64,000 bases of DNA from Campylobacteraceae bacterium (lineage in GTDB: Bacteria; Campylobacterota; Campylobacteria; Campylobacterales; Sulfurospirillaceae), in contig JALUBH010000020.1 of assembly GCA_027050775.1 (NCBI GenBank), positions 62,001 to 126,000 on the forward strand. Direction: 5' to 3'. The notes under the pieces are model-generated. The model was not told the origin of the DNA and did not search any database. It saw nothing but the letters and a program-made list of their open reading frames with translations. Each line of letters starts with the position of its first letter. Position 1 is the first letter of the stretch. The translations under genes and the position numbers were made by a program. This document shows positions 11,354 through 48,483 of this stretch, piece after piece.

Positions 11354-11587
11354 TTAATCCGGTGGACGATAGCCTTTCTCTTTTCTTTTTTGAACTATTT
11401 TCTTCTTTTTTTCTTCCATCATAATCGCATCATGCAGTGCCTCTTCACTATCTTGCAAAGCACCATCTATAAATTTATTTTTATCATCAAATTGTCCGGT
11501 TCTTATACCCCAGAGTAATGCCCATAAACCAAAACCTCCCAACAATATGGAAGCTCCAAGCATCATAGCTATAATCCACGAACTCAT
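11354..11587 (-). CDS. ccoS: cbb3-type cytochrome oxidase assembly protein CcoS
   Basis: 77 residues, typical of CcoS. One N-terminal transmembrane helix (SILLGGFGLWALLWGIRTGQ) is followed by FDD, the conserved QFDD element, and a charged tail. CcoS is needed for insertion of cofactors into the cbb3 oxidase catalytic subunit. The ATG overlaps the stop of the upstream mini-ORF (ATGA), and its ribosome-binding site GGGGG is supplied by the repeat element. It follows ccoI with only the duplicated repeat between, so the two form a maturation operon. Confidence 0.88.
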   Translation of the reverse strand: MSSWIIAMMLGASILLGGFGLWALLWGIRTGQFDDKNKFIDGALQDSEEALHDAIMMEEKKKKIVQKRKEKGYRPPD

Positions 11588-11670
11588 CTTATTGCCCCCT
11601 TTTTACGGAAGTGAATTCCGAAAAAATTCCTCGCGACTGAAGCACGAAGTAAACTTCTGTATGGTTTCAT
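11584..11670 (-). CDS. 28-codon mini-ORF in repeat copy B (coding status uncertain)
   Basis: ATG at 11670 follows the GGGG ribosome-binding site of copy A by a normal distance. The peptide is basic (MKPYRSLLRASVARNFFG, then IHFRKKGAIR). The stop overlaps the ccoS ATG, so translation of ccoS could depend on it. The sister ORF in copy A (11672-11752) gives the same first 25 residues and ends ...KKGQ. No family is recognised. The peptides may simply keep ribosomes moving through the repeat. Confidence 0.35.
   Translation of the reverse strand: MKPYRSLLRASVARNFFGIHFRKKGAIR
11588..11670 (-). repeat. Hairpin/RBS repeat element, tandem copy B, with mini-ORF
   Basis: An 83-bp unit, identical to the adjacent copy A except for one extra G and one A-to-G change beside the ATG of ccoS. 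Read on the minus strand it has a conserved block GCTTCAGTCGCGAGGAA, a hairpin CGGAA-TTCAC-TTCCG flanked by U5 and A5, then AAAAAGGGGG as ribosome-binding site. An ATG at 11670 opens a 28-codon ORF (MKPYRSLLRASVARNFFG...) that stops at 11584, overlapping ccoS. Confidence 0.85.
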
Positions 11671-11752
11671 TTTATTGCCCCTTTTTACGGAAGTGAATTC
11701 CGAAAAAATTCCTCGCGACTGAAGCACGAAGTAAACTTCTGTATGGTTTCAT
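11671..11752 (-). repeat. Hairpin/RBS repeat element, tandem copy A, with mini-ORF
   Basis: The first 82-bp unit after ccoI. Its ATG (11750-11752) overlaps the ccoI stop as ATGA. It encodes a 26-codon mini-ORF ending TAA at 11672, one base before the ATG of copy B. Hairpin and AAAAAGGGG follow as in copy B. The near-identity of A and B indicates a recent tandem duplication. A third, diverged copy lies at 48347-48402. Confidence 0.85.
11672..11752 (-). CDS. 26-codon mini-ORF in repeat copy A (coding status uncertain)
   Basis: Begins at the ATG overlapping the ccoI stop (ATGA) and ends 1 nt before the ATG of the copy-B ORF. The chain ccoI, mini-ORF, mini-ORF, ccoS is thus linked by overlaps or a 1-nt gap. 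The peptide is short and Arg/Lys-rich, without a signal sequence or motif. Confidence 0.35.
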   Translation of the reverse strand: MKPYRSLLRASVARNFFGIHFRKKGQ

Positions 11753-46912: not shown

Positions 46913-47661
46913 TCTAAATACTGCTCATCACAAAAACTAGATAAGTTGATATTTTCGAATGCTTTCCTTAATGATGTAAAAAGAGCATGATTCTCCTCTT
47001 CCATTTTTTTCAACATCTCTTTTGTCTTAGCCCTGTTGAGCGGCATTTTTACATCGAATCTCATACTAGGACAAGCTTCATCGCTAACTAACGGCATATT
47101 AGCCTCTTTAGCTTGATCTATAAGCTGTCTCTCTCTTATATGTATGAGCGGTCGGATCACTTCTAATCCATTTTTTGCTCTATAGATTGGAGGCATCGAA
47201 CGAAGGGCGCCATTATATGAAAAATTCATAAAAAAACTCTCTACCGCATCATCAAGATGGTGACCGAGTGCAAGCTTATTGTAGCCATTTTCTAGTGCAT
47301 AACTATAAAGTGCTCCTCTTCTCATACGCGAGAAAAAACTACAAAATGAGGAGTTTTCCCTTATCTTCTCTTTTGCCAAATCATAAATCTTCGTATCATA
47401 AATTTTATGAGGTATGTTGTTTTTCAAACAATAATCATGAAGTATCTCTAAATTTTCACCCATCCCATATGCAACGGTAACTGCTTGAAACTCAAAATCA
47501 AATGGTACAACACTATGCATATGTTTTAGCACATGTGCTAGTGTAAGTGAGTCCTTTCCACCGCTGAGTCCAAGCAAAATCTTATCTCCTTCTTTGATAA
47601 GATTATATCTAGCATTTGTCCTGCCTGTGATTCTGAGAAGTTTTTTACTTAGTTTTATCAA
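46909..47661 (-). CDS. TtcA-like tRNA thiolation protein with an altered cluster motif
   Basis: 250 residues of the TtcA/TilS ATP-pyrophosphatase family. The PP-loop is LLGLSGGKDSLTLAHVL (about residues 28-44). TtcA puts sulfur on C32 of tRNA using a 4Fe-4S cluster held by three cysteines. The first pair, CxxC before SRxRRG in TtcA, reads CSFFSRMRRG here: one cysteine is replaced by Phe. The downstream region keeps a cysteine (DEACPSMRFDVKMP). LGHHLDDAVESFFMN follows. A divergent TtcA, or a relative with a different target, is possible. The start overlaps mtnN by 17 nt. Confidence 0.8.
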   Translation of the reverse strand: MIKLSKKLLRITGRTNARYNLIKEGDKILLGLSGGKDSLTLAHVLKHMHSVVPFDFEFQAVTVAYGMGENLEILHDYCLKNNIPHKIYDTKIYDLAKEKIRENSSFCSFFSRMRRGALYSYALENGYNKLALGHHLDDAVESFFMNFSYNGALRSMPPIYRAKNGLEVIRPLIHIRERQLIDQAKEANMPLVSDEACPSMRFDVKMPLNRAKTKEMLKKMEEENHALFTSLRKAFENINLSSFCDEQYLD

Positions 47662-48346
47662 TTATTTTATCCACCATAGAAATTATAAAATCTGCACTGA
47701 TTTTCGCTGATGACTCTAAAAATTTATCAAAATCAAAGCCAGCATCCATATCGGCCGCATCGCTGATTGAGCGAAGTATAAAAGAGGGTACATCAAGAGC
47801 ATTGCAAACCAAAACAACGGCTGCTCCTTCCATCTCCAAAGCTCCTGCGTCAAATGTTTTTTCTATCCATTGTTTTCTATTTGAATCGCAAACAAATTGA
47901 TCACCTGTTGCTATAATTGTCTCTTTTAGTGAGAGTTTTTTCTCAATCGCCACTTCTTTGGCTATATCTATCAACCGCTTATCAGTTTTTTCATAAACAG
48001 AACCCTCGGGCACATATCCAAACGGGTGTCCAAAAGCAGAGATATCCAAATCATGTTGAGCTAGCTTGGTAGCAACAACAAGATCTCCTATCTGTAATTC
48101 ATCACTCACAGCACCTGCAACACCACTAAAAAGTAGCTTTTCGCAATTAAATTTCTCTATCATGGTTACTGCTGTTATCGCAGCATTTACTTTTCCTATT
48201 TTACTATATGCTATAACCAATGTATGTTCGTTATACTTAACAACATAAAAACTATTTTTTGCATACTCTACTAACTTATACTCTTTATAATGTACCAAAA
48301 GTGGTTCAATCTCTTCAGGCATTGCGCCCATAATTGCTATATTCAT
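47645..48346 (-). CDS. mtnN: 5'-methylthioadenosine/S-adenosylhomocysteine nucleosidase
   Basis: 233 residues. AIMGAMPEEIEPLL has the general-acid Glu (about residue 12), LLFSGVAGAVSDELQIGDLV the ribose region, ALEMEGAAVVLVC the substrate-binding Met-Glu, and SDAAD the catalytic Asp. In Campylobacterota the enzyme also serves the futalosine menaquinone route by cleaving aminodeoxyfutalosine. The ATG uses the GGGG ribosome-binding site supplied by the repeat element at 48347-48402. Confidence 0.94.
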   Translation of the reverse strand: MNIAIMGAMPEEIEPLLVHYKEYKLVEYAKNSFYVVKYNEHTLVIAYSKIGKVNAAITAVTMIEKFNCEKLLFSGVAGAVSDELQIGDLVVATKLAQHDLDISAFGHPFGYVPEGSVYEKTDKRLIDIAKEVAIEKKLSLKETIIATGDQFVCDSNRKQWIEKTFDAGALEMEGAAVVLVCNALDVPSFILRSISDAADMDAGFDFDKFLESSAKISADFIISMVDKIIDKTK

Positions 48347-48402
48347 TTTATTGTCCCCTTTTTTAGGAGCAAAGCTCCTAAAAAATTCCTCGCGACTGAA
48401 GC
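48347..48402 (-). repeat. Hairpin/RBS repeat element, third (diverged) copy
   Basis: On the minus strand the conserved block GCTTCAGTCGCGAGGAA is followed by a perfect 12-bp hairpin (TTTTTTAGGAGC-TTT-GCTCCTAAAAAA), GGGG and then ATG of mtnN. Relative to the copies at 11588-11752 the flanks are identical while both stem arms changed together. A frame through the element (ASVARNFLG...KKGTIK) ends at TGA overlapping the mtnN ATG but lacks a standard start. A second frame is open and in phase with mtnN. Confidence 0.82.
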
Positions 48403-48444
48403 TACTGCTAGCGCAGAGAAATTTACTATTTATTTTTACTAAAG

Positions 48445-48483
48445 CTTTGGCTTCGCCAAGAAAATTAGTTACTAACTAATTTT
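48445..48483. repeat. Two further stem-loops between the nitrilase gene and mtnN
   Basis: TTGGC-TTC-GCCAA (48447-48459) and an 11-bp inverted repeat AAAATTAGTTA-C-TAACTAATTTT (48461-48483) lie between the nitrilase stop at 48489 and the hairpin/RBS element. No clear T-tract follows on the minus strand, so a standard terminator is not evident. Confidence 0.6.

Follow-up and report, generated by a model that had tools for sequence, protein, structure and literature searches.

Element copies at the mtnN and ccoS loci

The window (the whole 64,000-nucleotide stretch of DNA that was analysed) contains, on its minus strand, an mtnN-like gene preceded by one copy of a short hairpin-bearing repeat and a ccoS-like gene preceded by two in tandem. 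The first-pass annotation had described these three copies (11588-11670, 11671-11752 and 48347-48402), and all were found at those places, sharing GCTTCAGTCGCGAGGAATTTTT, then the stem arms CGGAA/TTCCG or TAGGAGC/GCTCCTA, then AAAAAGGGG and an ATG ~8 nt on, just as it had reported. The order in each unit is hairpin A, GCTTCAGTCGCGAGGAAT, hairpin B, GGGG, 8 nt and ATG. The hairpin recognised earlier is hairpin B; overlooked were hairpin A, which lies 5' of the linker and has a covarying stem too, the mini-ORFs (MKPYRSLLRASVARNFFGIHFRKKG..) formed by both ccoS copies, each with a stop that overlaps or adjoins the next ATG, and a partial module (48423-48464) just upstream of the mtnN copy. The name mtnN is presumed from general knowledge of the protein family, and ccoS from gene order and general knowledge. 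Scores refer to two covariance models, R1, built from 40 copies, and R2, a second model with older relatives included. All features are on the minus strand:

11354..11587, minus: ccoS-like gene of 77 aa that follows a copper-ATPase-like gene (reading frame)
11584..11670, minus: mini-ORF 2, MKPYRSLLRASVARNFFGIHFRKKGAIR, with a stop that overlaps the ccoS ATGA
11596..11663, minus: ccoS tandem pair, element copy 2 (sequence; covariance models)
11672..11752, minus: mini-ORF 1, MKPYRSLLRASVARNFFGIHFRKKGQ, with an ATG that overlaps the TGA of the upstream ATPase gene (ATGA) and a TAA 1 nt before the next ATG
11678..11745, minus: ccoS tandem pair, element copy 1, class I 5' end (sequence; covariance models)
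47645..48346, minus: mtnN-like gene, MNIAIMGAMPEEIEP... (reading frame; orthologues compared)
48355..48422, minus: mtnN element copy, hairpin A, linker, hairpin B and GGGG, young type with class II 5' end (sequence; R2 77.1 bits; R1 85.2 bits at G000:C20:110355-110422)
48355..48358, minus: putatively donated Shine-Dalgarno GGGG (AAAAAAGGGG), ATG 8 nt downstream (sequence)
48359..48384, minus: mtnN copy hairpin B, TTTTTAGGAGC ttt GCTCCTAAAAA (sequence; covariation)
48385..48402, minus: conserved linker GCTTCAGTCGCGAGGAAT of the mtnN copy (sequence; alignment of copies)
48405..48416, minus: mtnN copy hairpin A, CTGC gcta GCAG (CTGCgctaGCAG) (sequence; covarying stem class)
48423..48464, minus: decayed unit upstream of the mtnN copy, hairpin A (TTGGCGAAGCCAA) and GCTTTAG, hairpin B lost (R2 22.7 bits, E=7e-4)

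The ccoS tandem pair has a period of 82 nt, and its hairpin A stem is GAAG/CTTC. Hairpin-A-only remnants (TTCTTGGCG..GCCAAAGCTTTAGTAAAAATAAAAATAGT) often lie 5' of full units, both in the window (48423-48464) and at L048, L052 and L117, and look as if units decay via hairpin B loss.

Element anatomy and subtypes

The element is ~66 nt long and comprises hairpin A, the linker GCUUYAGU..GAGGAAU, hairpin B and AAAAGGGG or AAAAGGAG, usually with an AUG 6-10 nt on. Across Campylobacterales the consensus is near UUCUYGCC-AAA-GGCRAAGCUUUAGUGAGAGGAAUUUU-[B]-AAAAGGAG. Linker and Shine-Dalgarno motifs switch jointly between subtypes, GAGGAAU occurring with GGGG/GGAG and GCGUGAAU with GAUG. Subtype III has the linker AGUAGAGCGUGAAUU and takes the form AGTAGAGCGTGAATT linker ... 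AAGATGACAGTTAAATA, the latter in place of a Shine-Dalgarno (G000 contigs C10, C18, C2, C27, C32, C33, C37, C43 and C46). Donation of a Shine-Dalgarno is not universal, because these copies lack one and precede genes that keep their own. Genes 3' of the Shine-Dalgarno-less copies look like rplL, rplK, infA, rpoZ, mreB and dnaK, the rplK copy being of an older type with AAAGAAG. Some subtype III copies hold a 4-codon ATGACAGTTAAATAA ORF within their 3' end.

At six loci (L081, L133, L121, L144, L310 and L311) hairpin B is replaced by a long palindrome of unrelated sequence, CTGCCCATAAAT..ATTTATGGGCAG, and AGGGG and then usually a start codon still lie 3' of it. An autonomous element within this long variant was considered and rejected as its length is insufficient.

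Paired stem changes and RNA structure

The earlier claim that the stem arms covary was confirmed on 40 diverse copies with a structure fixed in advance, where 88.8% of pair cells were standard pairs compared with 67.7% after shuffling. The covariation score was 0.572 against 0.211 for shuffled alignments, with 0/500 shuffles as high, and cells changed on both sides numbered 139 against 58; shifting the partner by one column reduced the score to at most 0.22. Both hairpins covary strongly, with compensatory changes exceeding the shuffled controls, as is required of a structured RNA. Among 66 distinct B hairpins, 548/594 pairs were Watson-Crick, 27 were G-U and 6 were A-C, and since G-U exceeds A-C the structure is indicated to be one of sense RNA rather than DNA. 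Hairpin A showed 44 different stems among 102 distinct sequences, a count that leans towards pairing since stems were chosen by best fit. Part of the stem changes may be whole-hairpin swaps between copies and not stepwise repair. In some single-sequence folds the linker pairs with the hairpin A region instead, hence a two-state structure is possible.

These folds also bear on the earlier proposal of a thermometer-like element, considered here as an RNA thermometer or other switch that would hide the Shine-Dalgarno and open on a signal. Hairpin B reaches the A-run adjoining the Shine-Dalgarno, a ccoS copy has a predicted unpaired probability for this motif of 0.01 at 37 C, and the alternative linker pairings would suit a switch, but GGGG lies outside the conserved stem. 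Mean predicted Shine-Dalgarno accessibility over 148 elements was 0.46, 0.52, 0.59 and 0.71 at 10, 25, 37 and 55 C, and 0.47, 0.49, 0.53 and 0.61 at 28 native starts. For the family as a whole, predicted accessibility and temperature response are thus close to those of native starts and lend the thermometer no support, and we consider it very improbable.

Copy number and taxonomic spread

A search with the 18-nt linker core (≤3 mismatches) gave 41 matches in the window's own genome compared with one for a reversed-pattern control, and R1 detected 83 copies (E≤1e-3), which group into 53 arrays. The expectation, set beforehand, that further copies would occur genome-wide and that their stems would pair was therefore borne out on both counts. 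With R2, the element was found in 122/399 Campylobacterales genomes and 28/87 genera; this order-wide scan counted copies per genome only up to "at least 13", and abundance outside the own genus is a lower bound. Carriers include Sulfurospirillum arcachonense, other Sulfurospirillum, Campylobacteraceae metagenome genomes and a Sulfurovum mangrovi plasmid, and in a sample of the phylum the matches were confined to Campylobacterales. At gathering score, Rfam 15 gave no family in the loci scanned, except RNase P where the element lies inside it, and a permissive Rfam search of the ccoS copies returned nothing better than E≥1.2. No description of the family was found in the open-access literature.

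A phage or plasmid vehicle was rejected, there being no phage record and a single plasmid copy (that of Sulfurovum mangrovi). Two viral-contig pattern matches look like chance, because their scores are weak (E about 1e-3) and they lack the element's hairpin B and Shine-Dalgarno.

Position at gene starts

In the own genome, 38/53 arrays are followed after 7-9 nt by the ATG of an ORF of at least 60 aa; for about 12 of the remaining 15 the next same-strand start comes after about 20-35 nt, and the others include contig ends. All assigned own-genome arrays are sense to the next gene. Among copies from diverse families, 54/60 precede a same-strand ORF of at least 60 aa with a modal spacing of 8 nt, and 14 of 20 further copies sit 5-12 nt from such an ORF. 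A co-oriented upstream ORF ending ≤250 nt away accompanied 122/142 and 50/57 copies, as against 100/300 random places, and most copies occupy operon junctions. Two degenerate copies (L357 and L354) lie directly beside opposite-strand genes that appear, by eye, to be tRNA genes.

Most copies hold the sole Shine-Dalgarno-like sequence that is suitably spaced for the next start, and because a copy usually brings its own ribosome-binding site, the element appears to take over translation initiation of the next gene. The downstream genes are unrelated and have no common pathway. From N-terminal sequence and general knowledge we take them to include mtnN, ccoS, guaA-, leuA-, argF- and hemN-like genes and response regulators. 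The earlier description of a dispersed, mobile-looking, RNA-structured element at the starts of unrelated genes is supported in this respect by genome-wide copies, covariation and position alike.

Start-site specificity could partly reflect survivorship in gene-dense operons. A point against a start-specific reading is that the element also lies in the P12 loop of RNase P RNA, away from any start codon and sense to the RNA, in four of the loci scanned (RNase P match around the insert 254-263 bits; L249, L245, L251 and L254), which suggests that it can ride as an RNA domain inside RNase P RNA. An old-type P12-loop insert was seen at about 1500-1566 of each of L249, L250, L245, L251 and L254.

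Empty sites, duplications and the question of mobility

The empty sites in sister genomes that a mobile element should leave were found at mtnN and in six other filled/empty pairs (L095/L060, L049/L094, L068/L103, L119/L088, L088/L169 and L110/L083). Of about 29 orthologous mtnN 5' regions that could be read in the family, most lack the element, and in many of these a native Shine-Dalgarno directly follows the upstream gene; the site is filled in G000, G003, G005 and G017 by different subtypes and holds a fragment in G004. In several pairs the element lies 3' of the ancestral Shine-Dalgarno and ATG, which suggests insertion a short way into the gene. The start region is duplicated over 21 nt at L134, 20 nt at L151, 15 at L062, 14 at L102 and 12 at L110; the forward match exceeded shuffles (P=0.009) and was relied on because undetected upstream units inflate the backward match.

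One reading of a small, palindromic repeat that recurs in tandem is an ordinary DNA-level MITE/REP, the kind to which most small bacterial repeats belong (PMC2229807), with hairpins as transposase recognition sites and a start bias arising from survival alone. Against this, aligned copies showed by inspection no end-to-end inverted repeat, and a fixed-length target-site duplication was absent, duplications of 12-21 nt being clear in a handful of copies alone. The arms are free to change in sequence as long as they still pair, contrary to what an end recognised by its sequence would show, and the excess of G-U over A-C on the sense strand and the uniformly sense orientation of the assigned arrays also argue against it, hence we regard a MITE/REP as unlikely. 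The element remains a candidate mobile element, and a point against mobility is that no transposase, integrase or reverse transcriptase is tied to it.

A conserved cis-regulatory leader serving a protein or small RNA regulon, such as CsrA bound at a pair of GGA motifs on either side of hairpin B, could instead have spread by recombination and be kept by regulation and not by selfish mobility. The joint change of linker and Shine-Dalgarno motifs between subtypes would fit such a leader, as would paired stem changes at the apparently orthologous starts L367, L375 and L377, and CsrA is present in most genomes tested. At the hemB-argF junction an old-type copy is kept in at least seven species, with young-type copies in the own genus. 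However, a regulon is difficult to reconcile with the diversity of pathways downstream, and tandem arrays, the patchy presence at mtnN with different subtypes and the RNase P P12 insertion better fit a mobile element. CsrA as an obligatory reader was rejected, as no CsrA match was obtained in G119, a genome listed as 100% complete that carries at least 13 copies. We therefore consider the regulatory leader rather unlikely, if the most plausible of the alternatives.

Mini-ORFs and probable translational coupling

At several loci including ccoS, an upstream start opens a mini-ORF of 24-28 codons whose stop overlaps or abuts the next AUG. Among class I copies with an upstream ATG (n=59), the stop falls at -1..+5 of the next ATG in 55/59, compared with 40.5 ± 2.6 in chimeras of different copies (maximum 49 in 1000), a control in which the copies are not phylogenetically independent. 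Coupling through overlapping stop and start codons is a reviewed mechanism (PMC12548453), which the element resembles in that the mini-ORF stop overlaps the ATGA or lies 3-5 nt upstream; it differs from ordinary coupling in that the coupled pair arises by repeated insertion and not by gene order.

The mini-ORF might alternatively be a duplicated small gene for a functional ~27-aa peptide, since almost every class I copy keeps it open and its commonest frame gives similar sequences across copies (MKxYRASARALVARNFCGIHFRKKGTIK). It is read in three frames across copies, however (ALVARNF, SREEF and LQSRGIF), so that what is kept is not the peptide; stem changes alter it, and an ATG at the corresponding place is missing from 47/60 copies of the second 5' class. 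One of the frames would acquire a TAG if the variable linker position were T, and in this frame the base is C in 8/8 class I copies; what is maintained is therefore an open path to the next start and not a peptide. A peptide gene is hardly credible on these grounds, and the 25-28-aa ORFs made by the element are probably not functional genes.

A proposed mobile element of translation starts

Our preferred reading, which we think probable from the sequence comparisons, is a sense-oriented, non-autonomous ~66-nt mobile element specific to translation starts, which donates a Shine-Dalgarno and often makes a coupled mini-cistron; the family was found here in Campylobacterales alone. Such an element would spread by inserting at translation initiation regions and would survive since the target gene receives a working initiation signal. 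On landing just inside a gene, it would leave the old Shine-Dalgarno and ATG upstream, where they would drive the 24-28-codon mini-ORF through the element, and as this stops on or next to the new ATG, translational coupling could carry ribosomes over from the old start to the new. Hairpin B excludes the Shine-Dalgarno and could be opened by a passing ribosome. Some copies, as at the hemB-argF junction and in the RNase P P12 loop, may have been retained for a long time as leaders or harmless RNA domains.

More speculatively, spread could be RNA-borne, with sense-oriented insertion where ribosomes initiate, either into mRNAs or, via an RNA copy, into DNA, and with duplication of the start region. 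This route would account for sense orientation, structure conservation and start-site choice; we think it improbable, and if true the family would be a bacterial counterpart of SINEs that targets the very start of translation.

As a rule, small mobile repeats are tolerated because they lie hidden between genes or within them, whereas this one appears to settle on translation starts and rewire them. Unrelated genes would thereby share one structured leader and acquire a new Shine-Dalgarno, often together with a coupled mini-cistron. Tens of insertions per genome, with empty sites in sister genomes for comparison, would serve as natural experiments on the influence of leader structure and coupling on protein output. 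The family would add an order-wide RNA family absent from Rfam 15, and annotators should be aware that start codons near the element may be miscalled.

Relation to known repeats

To our knowledge, the BOX, RUP and SPRITE repeats are not bound to start codons and bring no Shine-Dalgarno. They are small interspersed repeat families of Streptococcus pneumoniae (PMC3049150), a description that the Campylobacterales element shares. ERIC, YPAL/RU-2, RUP and Correia/NEMIS are about 100-200 bp with mostly terminal inverted repeats; like the present element they are non-autonomous and form RNA stem-loops, some being read as gene-fused ORFs (PMC2229807). It differs from them in its 66 nt, its two hairpins with free stem sequence, its conserved linker and its tie to translation starts, the last of which is not described for those families in PMC2229807. 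REP elements are characterised by a 20-40 bp palindrome with GTAG/CGTC tags and by an accompanying RAYT transposase.

The likeness to Rickettsia palindromic elements (RPEs) proposed in the first-pass annotation holds for behaviour and fails for site preference and reading-frame use. RPEs are palindromic, small and dispersed; functional genes tolerate them, their frames are open, and repeat sequences are reported from RNA genes also (PMC2229807); the present element is likewise a small dispersed palindrome in functional genes, with an open frame, and occurs in an RNA gene. RPEs are described as in-frame inside proteins (PMC2229807), whereas the Campylobacterales element is placed at start codons, supplies a Shine-Dalgarno and forms a separate mini-ORF. 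In 55/59 class I copies this mini-ORF ends at the next start and does not fuse with the gene as described for RPEs. The element works like small mobile palindromes and fails their defining features where tested, with no Rfam match of its own in the loci scanned.

The nearest case of repeats at start codons is that of the TAACTGA repeats of marine Beggiatoaceae, which are mostly forward, lie a few nt from start codons and have been proposed as sites for a translational regulator (PMC4679880). These belong to a different phylum and are heptamer direct repeats with little Shine-Dalgarno character, not hairpins (PMC4679880).
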